From contig JAMLGR010000015.1 in assembly GCA_023957775.1 (NCBI GenBank), positions 1 to 64,000 on the forward strand: a DNA stretch of 64,000 nt, in the 5' to 3' direction. Below, piece after piece: positions 9,710 through 62,518 of the stretch. Each line of letters starts with the position of its first letter. Within the stretch, counting starts at the first letter, position 1. The notes beneath the pieces are model-generated. The model saw nothing but the letters and a program-made list of their open reading frames with translations, ran no database searches and had not been told where the DNA came from. A program made the position numbers and the translations under genes. Source of the stretch: Fimbriimonadaceae bacterium. GTDB taxonomy: Bacteria > Armatimonadota > Fimbriimonadia > Fimbriimonadales > Fimbriimonadaceae.

Positions 9710-9887
9710 CTCTGGGAGTGCGCAAGCTTGCTCGCCGCCCCTCTGGGAGTGCGCGAGCTTGCTCGTCGCCCTGACCCCGAGCGGCTTGCCGCGAGCACGG
9801 GCCGGACAAACTCAAGGCAGCACGCGAGCAGGGCCGGACAAGTCCGGCGTCACACAAGGCGGCGCGCAAGCGCGCGCACTCCCAGAG
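9710..9887. repeat. REPIN-like element, copy 1
   Basis: Bounded by a perfect 14-bp inverted repeat CTCTGGGAGTGCGC (9710-9723, repeated at 9741-9754) and its complement (9874-9887). Each end continues into a small hairpin (CGAGC-TT-GCTCG on the left; GCGC-AA-GCGC on the right). The left end is duplicated with a 30-bp spacing. The element ends 1 bp from the stop codon of the McsB-like gene. No ORF of its own is evident. Confidence 0.8.
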
Positions 9888-9888
9888 A

Positions 9889-10902
9889 TCAGCCCTCCAC
9901 TCGGTTGCGGAGGAACGCCGCCCTGTCCCGGGCGGCCACCTCGGTGTTCGAGTTGCCGCGCACCTCGAGCATCGTGAGCCAGCGATCCACCTCGCGCGGG
10001 CTTGTGGGAAAGCCCTCCAACTGCGCGCTCGCCGCCCAGCGCACCCAGCCGAGCACCCGCAGCGCGTCCGCGAGCCCGATCGAGCGCGAGCCGATCGCGA
10101 ACTCCGCGGCCTGGCGCGCCCGCTCCTCGAGGACCGCGCGCCCGATCTCCGAACGCGCGTCCCGCTCTTCCCGCAGCAGGTACTCGCACGCACCGACGAA
10201 CTCCACCCGGGTGCCGCTGGAGATCGACACCTGGACGAATGCGCCCACCGCGCGGCTCGACTCTCCGAAGAGCCCTCTTGCAGCCAGCCCGCGGGCTCCC
10301 AGCGCCTTCAGCACCGACGGCAGACGCTTGCCCTGCGCCAACCCGATGAGGTGGAACATCGCCGACAGCCGTCGCCCCTCGCCCGCGTTGAACGGGCTCG
10401 CCGAGAGGTAACCGAACGCCGGCGTCCAAGCGAAGTCGAGCGTTTGGGACAACCCGTCGAGGGTCTCTCGCACCCGCGCATCCGCCGCATCGATGGACCA
10501 GCCCGGGCTCAGGCACTGGACCCGAAGGTGATCCTCCTCGTTGACCATCACGCAGCGCGAGCGCTCCTGGTCGAGCAGGAGCGCGCGGCCCGGCTCGTTC
10601 CACCGAAAGTCGTGCGAGGCCAAGCGGCTACCCACCAGGTAGTCGCGCTCGGCCTGCGTCGCGTGCCGCTGCACGTCGAATCCTCCGCCGGCCGCGGCCA
10701 CGACCCGCTCGAGGATCTCGCGAAGCTCCGCCTCGGATGCGTGGTGCGGGAAGCGATGGCCCTTCAGGTTCCGCATGACCCGCGCGCGCGAGCTCAGCAC
10801 CACATCGCCGTGGGGAGCATCGGAGTCCAGCCAAGCCGGGGGCGGCATGGAACGAAGCACCATCTCGCGCCAGGATTCGGAGGCACTGCTGGCGCGGGGC
10901 AT
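9889..10902 (-). CDS. McsB-like protein-arginine kinase homologue lacking the catalytic Cys
   Basis: A 337-residue ATP:guanido phosphotransferase-fold protein, closest in pattern to McsB, which phosphorylates arginines on proteins to mark them for ClpCP. McsB hallmarks are clear: VVLSSRARVMRNL (35-47), VNEEDHLRVQ (120-129) and RGLFGESSRAVG. The loop that in McsB reads GYLTxCPTNVG is GYLSASPFNAG here, so the conserved Cys (B. subtilis Cys167 as I recall) is Ser169. No ctsR, mcsA or clpC gene is adjacent, unlike in Firmicutes. It could be a regulatory pseudokinase or a variant enzyme. ATG start 16 bp from REPIN copy 2; the stop abuts REPIN copy 1. Confidence 0.85.
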   Translation of the reverse strand: MPRASSASESWREMVLRSMPPPAWLDSDAPHGDVVLSSRARVMRNLKGHRFPHHASEAELREILERVVAAAGGGFDVQRHATQAERDYLVGSRLASHDFRWNEPGRALLLDQERSRCVMVNEEDHLRVQCLSPGWSIDAADARVRETLDGLSQTLDFAWTPAFGYLSASPFNAGEGRRLSAMFHLIGLAQGKRLPSVLKALGARGLAARGLFGESSRAVGAFVQVSISSGTRVEFVGACEYLLREERDARSEIGRAVLEERARQAAEFAIGSRSIGLADALRVLGWVRWAASAQLEGFPTSPREVDRWLTMLEVRGNSNTEVAARDRAAFLRNRVEG

Positions 10903-10917
10903 AACCGATTCTAGCCC

Positions 10918-11134
10918 CTCTGGGAGTGCGCGGACTTTATCCGCGCTTTCACTTCTCCAGCCGGCCAGGCAAAGCGCCGATCAAGAGTCTGTCGCAAACT
11001 GCAGTGAAGGGCTCCGGGTGCCACGCCCGCTGGACGGGAGTGAGTTCAAGGTTGTAGCTGAAAGCCCCCGCACGCCCGCCAAGCGGGCGTGGCACCCAGG
11101 GTTTTGCGACAGTCTCTTCATCGGCGCACTCCCA
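10918..11134. repeat. REPIN-like element, copy 2, with nested composite inverted repeat
   Basis: Left end CTCTGGGAGTGCGC (10918-10931) leading into hairpin GCGCGGA-CTTTA-TCCGCGC; right end GCGCACTCCCA (11124-11134). Inside are a second inverted pair (CTGTCGCAAA at 10989-10998 against TTTGCGACAG at 11103-11112) and two opposed copies of the CACGCCCG hairpin repeat, giving a 130-bp imperfect palindrome (about 10985-11116). It lies between the start of the McsB-like gene and the stop of metH. Confidence 0.8.
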
Positions 11135-11139
11135 CAATG

Positions 11140-12798
11140 CTAGCGAACGTTGAAGTACTTCGCCTCGGGGTGGTGGACGATGATCGCCGATGTGGACTGT
11201 TCGGGCATAAGCATGAACTCCTCGCTCAGCTCCACCCCGATGTCCTCCGGCTCCAGCAACTCGAAGAGCTTCGCCTGGTCCTCAAGATTCGGGCACGCGG
11301 GGTAGCCGAACGAGTAGCGGGAGCCGTGGTACTTCGCGCCGAACAGACCCTTGACCGTCTCAGGCTCCGTGTCCGCGATGCCCATCTCCCGGCGAATCTG
11401 CAGGTGCCAGTACTCGGCTAGCGCCTCGGCAGTCTCGACGCCCATGCCGTGCACGTAGAGATAGTCCTGGAACTCGCCCTTGGCGAACAGCTCGCGCTCC
11501 AAGACCGACACGTCCGGCCCGACGGTCACCAAATGGAAGCCCACGGTGTCCACGGTCTCCGAGCCCAGCGGCTGGAAGAAGTCGGCCAGGCACTGCCGTC
11601 GGCCGTCGCGCTGGCGGGGGAACGTGAACCGTACGCGTTCGGTGCGCGCGTCCTCGTGGAACACGACCAGGTCGTTCCCTTCCGACGCGCACGGGAAATA
11701 GCCCCACTTCACCTTGGGTTTGAGCACCGACGCGAGTTCGCGCTGCATCCGCTCGAACACGGGCCGCGCGTGCTCCTCGAGCCACGCGTCGAAGGCGGGG
11801 TTATCCATGCCGTCGGGCCGCTTGAACTGCCATTGACCGCGCCACAGCGCCACGGGGTTGATGTACTTGTACACCTCGAAGAGATCGAACTTGGTGTGGC
11901 GGCGCGCTCCGTAAAACGGAAGCGGCGGCGGCGCGACGGGCTGCACTTCGCTGCGCGTACCGTCAAACACGTAGAGCGTCGGGTCCAGATCGGGAAGCCG
12001 GTGCGAGGCCACGCGTCCCTCGCCGACCTCGACCTCCGGCGTCGGAGCCTCCGACCCGCCGCACAACTCGCCCATGAGCTTCAGGCCCTCGAACGCGTCC
12101 TGCGCGTAAAACACCTTCCCCTCGTACTGCGCGCGCAGATCCTGCTCGACGTAGCCGCGCGTCAACGCCGCGCCACCCAGCACCACGGGAAAGCCGGACA
12201 GGCCGCGCTGGTTCATCTCCAGCAGGTTCTCGCGCATGATCACCGTGCTTTTGACCAGAAGGCCCGACATGCCGATGACCTGGACGCGGTGCTCGGCCGC
12301 CTTGTCGAGGATGTTCTGGATCGGCTGTTTGATGCCGATGTTCACCACCCGGTAGCCGTTGTTGCTCAGGATGATGTCCACCAGGTTCTTGCCGATGTCG
12401 TGGACGTCGCCAGCGACGGTCGCGAGCAAGATCGAGCCCTTCTCGCTCCCCTCGACCCGCTCCATGAGCGGCTCGAGTTGCCGCACGGCGGCCTTCATCA
12501 CCTCGGCGCTTTGAAGCACGAACGGAAGCTGCATCTTCCCCGCCCCGAACAGCTCGCCCACGGTCTTCATGCCGTCCAGCAGGATGTCGTTGATGATCGC
12601 AAGCGGCTCGTAGGTCTCCAGCGCCTTCTCGAGACGGCCTTCCAGCCCCTTCTTCACCCCGTCGACGATGTGCTTCTTGAGGGCGTCTTCGATCCCGAGC
12701 CCCTCGAACGGGTCGCCGGTGGTCGCCGCCGCCCGCACGTTCTCGAACCGCGCCATCAGTTCGTGCAGCGGGTCGTAGGTGCAAACGCGATCAGCCAT
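11140..12798 (-). CDS. metH: split methionine synthase: cobalamin-binding and AdoMet-activation modules
   Basis: A 552-residue protein equivalent to the C-terminal half of cobalamin-dependent methionine synthase. It has a helical cap domain (about 45-115), a Rossmann B12-binding domain with the ligand motif DVHDIG (131-136, His133 the lower axial ligand), and from about 300 the reactivation domain with RYSFGYPACP near 505. The homocysteine-binding and methyl-tetrahydrofolate-binding domains are absent, and ATG 12798 is followed by normal cap sequence, so this looks like a natural domain split and not a recent truncation. Partner subunits must be encoded elsewhere. Both ends of the gene abut REPIN-like elements. 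No SAM or B12 riboswitch is seen upstream. Confidence 0.9.
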   Translation of the reverse strand: MADRVCTYDPLHELMARFENVRAAATTGDPFEGLGIEDALKKHIVDGVKKGLEGRLEKALETYEPLAIINDILLDGMKTVGELFGAGKMQLPFVLQSAEVMKAAVRQLEPLMERVEGSEKGSILLATVAGDVHDIGKNLVDIILSNNGYRVVNIGIKQPIQNILDKAAEHRVQVIGMSGLLVKSTVIMRENLLEMNQRGLSGFPVVLGGAALTRGYVEQDLRAQYEGKVFYAQDAFEGLKLMGELCGGSEAPTPEVEVGEGRVASHRLPDLDPTLYVFDGTRSEVQPVAPPPLPFYGARRHTKFDLFEVYKYINPVALWRGQWQFKRPDGMDNPAFDAWLEEHARPVFERMQRELASVLKPKVKWGYFPCASEGNDLVVFHEDARTERVRFTFPRQRDGRRQCLADFFQPLGSETVDTVGFHLVTVGPDVSVLERELFAKGEFQDYLYVHGMGVETAEALAEYWHLQIRREMGIADTEPETVKGLFGAKYHGSRYSFGYPACPNLEDQAKLFELLEPEDIGVELSEEFMLMPEQSTSAIIVHHPEAKYFNVR

Positions 12799-12810
12799 GC
12801 AAGTCCATTA

Positions 12811-12964
12811 TGGGAGTGCGCGGATTCAACCGCGCTTTCAACGGGCGCAAGACCCTTGATGTCCACGCCGACTTGGCGGGCGTGCGGAGGCTTTCTGCGA
12901 CCGCGTCACAAGGCACGCCCGTCCAGCGGGCGTGGCACCCAGACTCTCCGAAACCGCGCTCCCA
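12811..12964. repeat. REPIN-like element, copy 3
   Basis: Left end TGGGAGTGCGCGG (12811-12823) forms hairpin GCGCGG-ATTCAA-CCGCGC. The right end CCGCGCTCCCA (12954-12964) is a slightly shorter inverted copy. Inside are two hairpin-repeat units (about 12863-12887 and 12913-12940), matching the interior of copy 2 in opposite orientation, so metH is bracketed by inverted relatives. The element ends 2 bp before the rpmA stop codon. Confidence 0.75.
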
Positions 12965-60896: not shown

Positions 60897-62372
60897 ATGC
60901 AAGAGGTTCAGGGTGAAGACGCAGTGAACGAAACACCTTCAGCACCTGATCGGACAGTCCTTGCGGCCATCCTCTTTACGGACGCCGTCGGCTTCAGCGC
61001 GTTCGCCCGCGAAGACGAGGCGGGTGCGCTCGAAGCGATCGCGGCCGACCACCGCGCGATGCGCACGCTGTGCGGCCAACACGACGGCAAGGTCGTCAAG
61101 TCCACCGGGGACGGGCTGATGATGATGTTCGACTCCGCGGTGTCGGCGTTCCAGTGCGCGTTGGCGATCCTGCGCGACGTTCCCCACTCCCGCATCAAAC
61201 ACCGGCTCGGACTTCACTTGGGCGATGTGACCGTATCCGAAGACGACGTGATGGGCGACGGCGTGAACGTCGCTTCCCGCCTTCAGGAGCTGGCCCAACC
61301 CGGCGAGATCTGCGCGTCTCAGACCGTCGTCGACGTCGTCCAGAGCCGCCTGAAGTTCGCGATGCGACCGATGGGCGTCCAGACGCTCAAGAACATTCCG
61401 CAACCGTTGCGGGTGTATGCCGTGGACCCCTTTGGTTCGGAAACCAGGAAGCCCCACCCGCCGCGCTTGAACGCCCGAGTGGTGGGCTTCGTGTTCGGCG
61501 CCATCGCCCTGCTCGCAATCGGCATCCCGCTTTGGATGCTCGCCCTGCGTCCACCTCCCCAGACCGTGGCGCAAAACGAGAGTGGCCCTGTGACCTTGAG
61601 CCCGGAGCTCGCCCGCTACCTCGAGAACGGCAAACCGGTCGACGGGACCACGGAAGCCCCCGCGGCACAAACGCCGGAAGAGAAGGCGCTCGCCAAGAAG
61701 GTCTCGGATCTCGAGAGCATGCAGAAGTGGTTCGACGAACAGATGAAGGCCTATCCCAAGGAGAAACCACTCACCTTGCCCGCGACAAACGGATCGAAAC
61801 CCACGCAGGTCTGGAAGGACGAAACGTCGGGAGTGGTTGCCAAATCGTCCGACGACTCGCGCCCCGACGGCGTCAAGGCCGGCACGTTCGTCGAGGCGAC
61901 GCGCAAGCTCATCGGTCGGATGCCGGAGGGCCCTCAGAAGGAATCGATGCTTCGCAAGCTCGAATCGCTCGCGGTCCCCCGCAAACCTCCGACCTCGACG
62001 CCCGGCGACTCGGCCCCACCGGCGCCGATGAGGCCGGGGTTTGTGCGGAACGTTCCGCTTCCCAAGGAAGTTCAGGCGCGTATCGAGGAGCTGGACAACC
62101 TGAACGTGGTGCTCGGCGACGCGCTGAAAGGGTTCAGCCCCACGCGTCCGTTTTCATTGGAGTCTCCGGGGCGGCAACCGCTCTCGCTCTGGATCGACGC
62201 CGACGGCGACCTCGTGGGCGACACCGGAGACGGCTCCGCCGCGCCCGTCGAGATGGCGACCTATATCCGGGTCGCGCGCGAGCTCTCCAAATCCCTCCCC
62301 GACGGTCCGGAGAAGGAAGCGCTCAAGGCCGCGCTGGAGAAATTCGGGCACCGGGACGGCCCGGGAAACTAG
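60897..62372 (+). CDS. class III adenylate/guanylate cyclase with C-terminal exported domain
   Basis: A 491-residue protein. The cyclase domain (about 20-185) has both metal Asp residues (Asp29 in LFTDAVGFS, Asp72 in TGDGLMMMF), Lys68, and GDGVNVASRL with Asn124 and Arg128, so it looks active. A membrane helix follows (about 195-217), then an exported region with two related units (about 262-358 and 389-485), each ending in a helical PEGPQKESMLRKLESL-like block. This order, cyclase first and outer domain last, is reversed from most receptors. ATG 60897 used; GTG 60924, with AGGGTGA upstream, is possible. Confidence 0.87.
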   Translation: MQEVQGEDAVNETPSAPDRTVLAAILFTDAVGFSAFAREDEAGALEAIAADHRAMRTLCGQHDGKVVKSTGDGLMMMFDSAVSAFQCALAILRDVPHSRIKHRLGLHLGDVTVSEDDVMGDGVNVASRLQELAQPGEICASQTVVDVVQSRLKFAMRPMGVQTLKNIPQPLRVYAVDPFGSETRKPHPPRLNARVVGFVFGAIALLAIGIPLWMLALRPPPQTVAQNESGPVTLSPELARYLENGKPVDGTTEAPAAQTPEEKALAKKVSDLESMQKWFDEQMKAYPKEKPLTLPATNGSKPTQVWKDETSGVVAKSSDDSRPDGVKAGTFVEATRKLIGRMPEGPQKESMLRKLESLAVPRKPPTSTPGDSAPPAPMRPGFVRNVPLPKEVQARIEELDNLNVVLGDALKGFSPTRPFSLESPGRQPLSLWIDADGDLVGDTGDGSAAPVEMATYIRVARELSKSLPDGPEKEALKAALEKFGHRDGPGN

Positions 62373-62518
62373 TCTGGGAGTGCGCGAGCTTGCTCGTCGC
62401 CTTGTTCCCGAGCGGCTCGCCGCGAGGACGGGGAGCCGAACAAGTTCGGCCGATTCAGGGCGTCGCGCAAGCGCGCGCACTCCCAGGTGAGGGCGTCGCG
62501 CAAGCGCGCGCACTCCCA
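62373..62518. repeat. REPIN-like element, copy 4, between two convergent stops
   Basis: Left end TCTGGGAGTGCGCG (62373-62386) with hairpin CGAGC-TT-GCTCG. The right end CGCGCACTCCCA occurs twice (62474-62485 and 62507-62518), each after GGCGTCGCGCAAGCG, a 33-bp duplication mirroring the left-end duplication in copy 1. It begins on the base after the cyclase stop and ends 2 bp before the dehydrogenase stop. Confidence 0.82.

Follow-up and report, generated by a model that had tools for sequence, protein, structure and literature searches.

Inverted palindromic doublets in a Fimbriimonadales genome as REPINs most likely copied by a RAYT transposase encoded on another contig

Four short repeats with inverted ends and internal hairpins occur in a 64,000-nucleotide stretch of DNA (the window; bases 1-64000 of contig 15, C15) from a Fimbriimonadales (Armatimonadota) metagenome-assembled genome (MAG) of 3.51 Mb (27 contigs, 96.6% complete). 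A reading made from the letters of the window had likened them to doublets of repetitive extragenic palindromic (REP) sequences that are mobilized by REP-associated tyrosine transposases (RAYTs), and the window holds no RAYT gene. The locus raises the question of what these repeats are and which enzyme of the genome could have spread them. They were very probably REPINs (REP doublets forming hairpins), a non-autonomous family that was most likely copied by the genome's one intact RAYT of the HUH/Y1 type, encoded on contig 5, at C5:75.1 kb. All four copies were present in the window with exact or near-exact inverted ends, and each had at least one gene end at a distance of 2-18 bp, in line with the placement at start and stop codons that had been described. 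No fifth copy was found in the window at ≤1 mismatch, and the remaining matches looked like chance.

The elements were analyzed by pattern counts and alignments, and the reversed word and shuffled pairings served as controls. The 12-mer TGGGAGTGCGCG occurred in 185 exact copies in the genome, compared with 4 for the reversed word. Inverted doublets (TGGGAGTGCGC ... GCGCACTCCCA, with 65-95 bp between) were counted 38 times in the genome and 0 times in the control, so the elements extended genome-wide, beyond the window. The sample of repeat contexts covered 426 kb around repeats and contained 159 exact ends in 55 clusters, 30 of which held an inverted pair. For the location test, genes were called with our own hexamer model, by which 88% of the sequence was coding. 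The exact ends were strongly enriched in intergenic DNA, with 155 of 159 outside predicted genes (11% expected). They were mostly situated just 3' of genes, many of them 2-15 bp from a gene end. Moreover, 28 clusters lay in convergent gaps and 4 in divergent gaps, whereas adjacent gene pairs overall numbered 63 and 69, respectively (Fisher p=4e-5). Elements with 95-96% identity were found at distinct sites (e.g., C8:24135 and C17:29605), and their flanks were at background similarity.

The usual element was 106-116 bp long, most commonly 112 bp, and was arranged as TGGGAGTGC, four hairpins (H1, H2, H3 and H4) and GCACTCCCA, with H4 as the inverse of H1. Most loops were CTTG/CAAG-like, and H1/H4 occurred in three main types (GAG-CTTG-CTC, GCG-CTTG-CGC and GAC-CTTG-GTC). 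The hairpins had been described as compensating among the four copies, and this held across 26 genome copies, in which 98.6% of the cells of the four stems were paired compared with 90.5% after shuffling. In these copies, 10 pairs were changed on both sides (4.8 when shuffled) and 49 cells were doubly changed (13.9 when shuffled). These values were reached by 0 of 500 shuffles, and the signal was lost when the partner was slid by 1-3 columns. Furthermore, the whole element as single-stranded DNA (ssDNA) folded as one long hairpin, with z scores of -6.74 and -6.19 for two elements and -3.22 for copy 1. Searches against Rfam gave sub-threshold chance matches only. As a side observation, both end hairpins were of the same type at only 5 of 25 loci compared with 9.8 expected (p 0.03), which is suggestive at most, the copies being related; a possible reason is that perfect long palindromes are unstable.

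The base two positions before TGGGAG was a pyrimidine in 85 of the 86 outermost ends (p 2e-24 against one half), and T was seldom found at the two positions lying farther out. The cleavage sites of TnpA-REP enzymes are dinucleotides such as CT, CA and CC, which are set by the foot (PMC8266576). The conserved pyrimidine-N dinucleotide fits this idea, and it may be the site at which these elements are cleaved.

A RAYT gene flanked by the same ends was present on contig 5. The Pfam model PF01797 gave no match in this genome and many matches in its relatives. The gene was found by a protein search with the RAYT of a relative (G031), which returned a single close homologue at C5:75096-75626 (E 1e-64). 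The encoded protein was 172 residues long and 54% identical to the G031 RAYT. The gene was open and lay between two near-identical REPINs (C5:74946-75051 and 75675-75780), and further tandem ends were found on both outer sides of these REPINs. The protein scored 88.6 bits on NCBIfam NF047646 (REP_Tyr_transpos), for which the cut-off is 80. The histidines of its HYH motif (H64 and H66) and Tyr125 were invariant among 15 aligned proteins. Its predicted model had a predicted local distance difference test (pLDDT) score of 88.4, and the best solved-structure match was 4er8, the E. coli REP transposase on a REP hairpin (E 4e-9, TM score 0.67), followed by the IS608 and ISDra2 transposases. A second REP-transposase match, at C14:4132-4500, was rejected as a mobilizer, being degenerate and without HxH. 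This RAYT-like protein is encoded near hslV- and dnaK-like genes. Many relatives gave weak single matches to this model as well, which suggests a conserved and catalytically dead cousin of the RAYT.

The same design was observed in related genomes. The 12-mer was enriched in several relatives (31 copies in G012, 30 in G016, 26 in G061 and 20 in G054), and the 185 ends of this genome were about six times the highest number among 150 related genomes (≤31), many of which carry RAYTs; the counts in the relatives are lower bounds because their ends vary. In G031 (G031:C1:1193266-1193942), two inverted ends enclosed a Y1/HUH transposase of 192 aa, which scored 75.5 bits on the REP_Tyr_transpos model against the cut-off of 80. 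In most of the relatives inspected, the RAYT was flanked on one or both sides by GGAGTGC-stem-loop-stem-GCTTT ends, the stems of which varied among genomes and in some cases between both ends of one gene. In 23 such ends, 98.1% of the stem was paired compared with 76.2% after shuffling, and 31 cells were doubly changed compared with 7.1. The constant part was GGAG-TGC; these ends were chosen at ≤2 mismatches to TGGGAGTGCGC, so that conservation of the foot and the lower 5' arm was partly built in, whereas that of the 3' arm was not. A downstream palindrome of variable sequence was common to this genome and its relatives. The inverted ends at fixed spacing, the hairpin fold, the extragenic position genome-wide and the adjacent cognate RAYT are those of REPINs. 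Together with the relatives of like design, they support mobilization by a RAYT, as the sequence-only reading had proposed; neither outcome named as refuting it, confinement to the window or a lack of intergenic enrichment, was observed.

By analogy with characterized systems (PMC8266576, PMC3116915), among them the enzymes of E. coli, Marinomonas and IS608, the recognition, cutting, strand mechanism and mobilization by the RAYT can be tentatively described. In ssDNA, each end would fold to a hairpin with an unpaired GGAG foot 5' of the stem. The RAYT would read the foot and the shape of the hairpin, not the sequence of the stem, and Tyr125 would cut at the pyrimidine-N dinucleotide just outside TGGGAG. 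The element would be rejoined elsewhere, copied or moved as an inverted pair, with no target duplication. Insertions would persist for the most part in intergenic DNA, 3' of stop codons.

Other explanations account for part of these observations. Inverted ends, the lack of internal genes and a high copy number are also expected of a family of miniature inverted-repeat transposable elements (MITEs) that have terminal inverted repeats and depend on an ordinary DDE transposase. However, target duplications of ≥3 bp were found in 0 of 30 bounded clusters, for which this identity was rejected; the ends were hairpins with a foot and not plain terminal inverted repeats, their stems changed yet stayed paired, and the gene that such ends enclose in a relative encoded a Y1/HUH transposase. 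A DDE-driven family was hence considered highly improbable. The strong bias toward convergent gaps, the closeness to stop codons (a few bases) and the compensatory changes in the stems could alternatively reflect selection on the hairpins in RNA, as bidirectional terminators or 3'-end stabilizers for which the RAYT is irrelevant today. In other bacteria, REPs influence both termination and the half-life of mRNA (PMC8049555). This explanation appeared unlikely, as it leaves the fixed GGAGTGC foot, the pyrimidine at position -2, the inverted pairs at fixed spacing and the REPIN-bracketed RAYT unexplained. A role in RNA and mobilization by the RAYT are compatible and not exclusive.

Several points weigh against the interpretation of the repeats as REPINs copied by the contig 5 RAYT. 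A part of the repeat population consists of remnants, because 25 of the 55 clusters had no exact inverted partner. Canonical REPs are defined with a GT[AG]G 5' tetranucleotide (PMC3686654); the base directly before TGGG was C in 75 ends, G in 52, T in 17 and A in 15, and GTGG was present in only about a third of the ends. The RAYT gene contained an in-frame TAA (C5:75606-75629) where relatives read x-D-D-F-stop, beyond which translation would give D-G-F-stop; nearly all RAYTs of the relatives end in x-D-D-F (YDDF in two). Because the TAA removes the DDF tail, the RAYT may be altered or inactive, or the TAA may be an assembly error. Gene order around metH-rpmA was not conserved in the relatives examined, all from outside the genus, and no empty site or transposition event could be shown among them. 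The TAA and the many singlet ends would suit an extinct family that was spread by the RAYT in the past and persists as remnants after the enzyme was inactivated by the loss of its C-terminal tail. Such extinction was judged rather unlikely: the RAYT frame was otherwise intact with all catalytic residues present, the 95-96% identical elements at distinct loci suggest fairly recent activity, and E. coli TnpA-REP without its last 13 residues is a more active enzyme (PMC8266576). It is quite doubtful that the loss of the xDDF tail released the RAYT from self-restraint and thereby produced the large REPIN population, as a natural analogue of the hyperactive E. coli deletion. This link between tail loss and abundance is a single case in one genome, and the counts in the relatives with which it is compared are lower bounds.

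The REPIN interpretation applied unequally to the four window copies (Table 1), which had been regarded as one element. Copies 1 and 4 were REPINs, whereas copies 2 and 3 were not of the 112-bp form but composite elements, which had REP ends of an older type and carried a foldback from another repeat family. After the stem, the ends of copies 2 and 3 read GCGCTTTC, a type seen in relatives, and not GTCGCCCTG. The foldback of about 140 bp, from AAGAGACTGTCGC to GCGACAGTCTCTT, lay inside the loop of the second REP and contained GGGTGCCACGCCCGC palindromes. The 214-bp composite had full-length copies at C2:53476-53686 (90%) and C17:72786-73003 (86%). Its inner part recurred on C10, C9, C3 and C14, with 95% identity at C10:16465-16618. 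The arms around the insert were GCGCCGAT/ATCGGCGC in the C15 and C2 copies and GCGCGGAT/ATCCGCGC in the C17 copy, and this change was compensated. The second family is a separate, genome-specific palindromic repeat, because its 14-mer GGTGCCACGCCCGC occurred nearly only in this genome (153 exact copies; a single copy each in four relatives and 0 in the other 80, among 85 genomes of the bacterial family) and no RAYT or transposase of its own was seen. The GGTGCCACGCCCGC hairpin was located at 11016-11097 and 12863-12943 of the window. At several loci, the foldback sat in REP hairpin loops, and the REP stems around it were still complementary. This pattern resembles targeted insertion into REP loops, a behavior of some insertion sequence (IS) elements in other bacteria.

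Table 1. Repeat elements of the window and their parts
Feature	Position	Strand	Description	Exact ends and setting
Extra tandem REP end of copy 1	9713..9743	+	31-bp unit TGGGAGTGCGCAAGCTTGCTCGCCGCCCCTC	TGGGAGTGCGC starting at 9713
REPIN copy 1	9744..9884	+	141 bp; ends TGGGAGTGCGC and GCGCACTCCCA; interior longer than in the usual element of about 112 bp	TGGGAGTGCGC starting at 9744, reverse at 9874-9884; between nrdR-like and mcsB-like genes, 4 bp after the mcsB-like stop
Composite copy 2	10921..11134	+	214 bp; older-type REP GCGCGGACTTTATCCGCGCTTTC and second REP with foldback in its loop	TGGGAGTGCGC at 10921 and 11124-11134; 5 bp 3' of the metH-like stop
Inner part of copy 2	10974..11127		REP stem arms GCGCCGAT / ATCGGCGC flanking an insert of about 140 bp, a foldback with GGGTGCCACGCCCGC as inverted pairs (second repeat family)	
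Composite copy 3	12811..12963	+	Same kind as copy 2, interior reversed in orientation; right end degraded to GCGCTCCCA	TGGGAGTGCGC at 12811; GCGCTCCCA at 12963 with mismatch; flanked by the metH-like start and the rpmA stop
REPIN copy 4	62375..62485	+	Canonical 111-bp four-hairpin element	TGGGAGTGCGC at 62375 and 62475-62485; 2 bp 3' of the stop at 62372, in a gap between two convergent genes
Hairpin H1 of copy 4	62382..62400	+	GCGCGAGCTTGCTCGtCGC, one bulged base	
Hairpin H2 of copy 4	62409..62426	+	CGAGCGGCTCGCCGCGAG	
Hairpin H3 of copy 4	62435..62450	+	GCCGAACAAGTTCGGC; stem with the most compensatory change among copies	
Hairpin H4 of copy 4	62460..62478	+	Inverted counterpart of H1	
Extra tandem REP end of copy 4	62486..62518	-	33-bp unit	TGGGAGTGCGC at 62508-62518; stops 2 bp short of the next gene's stop

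The duplicated ends of copies 1 and 4 were real, that of copy 1 being 1 bp longer than the 30 bp given at first. Throughout the genome, arrays consisted mainly of additional tandem ends or additional whole elements. A tandem array of about ten 62-bp half-elements (H1 and H2), followed by a full REPIN and reversed ends, was observed at C4:32954-33649. The metH-like protein of the window had its nearest matches in Fimbriimonadales MAGs, with 68-69% identity.

REPIN/RAYT systems are best studied in gammaproteobacteria, and the present results extend them to Armatimonadota. A search of open-literature full texts, which mostly exclude subscription papers, found no paper joining Armatimonadota with REP repeats. 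The GGAG tag, which departs from the GT[AG]G rule, and the stems, which vary within and between genomes, form a natural data set on RAYT recognition (probably of the foot and the shape, not the stem sequence). Moreover, with a tailless RAYT and a large REPIN population in one genome, the regulatory role suggested for the tail becomes directly testable.

The elements share with the REPIN/RAYT system of Pseudomonas fluorescens SBW25 (Bertels & Rainey 2011, PMC3116915) the inverted REP doublets, the hairpins, the intergenic position, the ordered tandem arrays and the REPIN clusters beside the RAYT gene. The consensus had been called unfamiliar; it resembled the Pseudomonas REP GTGGGAGCGAGCTTGCTCGCGAT of class PF8 (PMC3686654), with which it shared TGGGAG and the CGAGCTTGCTCG hairpin core, but GT[AG]G was not kept. 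The present repeats belong to another phylum and differ from those of Pseudomonas in that TGCG is added between the foot and the core, the 3' arm of the stem has a bulge, two extra inner hairpins are present and GTGG is not conserved. The PF8-like core may reflect either descent or convergence. Both these repeats and the GTAG- and CGTC-tagged repeats of several phyla (PMC3733652) are high-copy, tagged intergenic palindromes; the tag found here fits neither GTAG nor CGTC, and Armatimonadota are not named in the main text of that paper. Compared with E. coli TnpA-REP and its bacterial interspersed mosaic elements (BIMEs; 4er8), the predicted fold, the HUH motif with tyrosine, the bulged irregular stem and the inverted REP pairs were the same, whereas the proteins were 18% identical, the foot was different and E. 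coli has no extra inner hairpins of this type. TnpA-REP subclass 2.8 comprises 8 members, from Cyanobacteria, with NHYH, W[YH] and YIHYNP motifs and a proline-rich N-terminus (PMC6006769 Table 1). The motifs of the contig 5 RAYT (NHYH, VWF and YVHNNP; VWY or VWH in relatives) were closest and not identical to these, a placement by motif and not by tree, and subclasses 2.4-2.7 have WQ and no HYH. In contrast to subclass 2.8, its N-terminus consisted of MKTWPHAPSKAVGEPG only, with no proline-rich domain seen, and the foot was GGAG instead of GT[AG]G. Systems of this kind are thus known, and what differs is the GGAG foot, the two extra hairpins and a RAYT with motifs nearest to subclass 2.8, the smallest.

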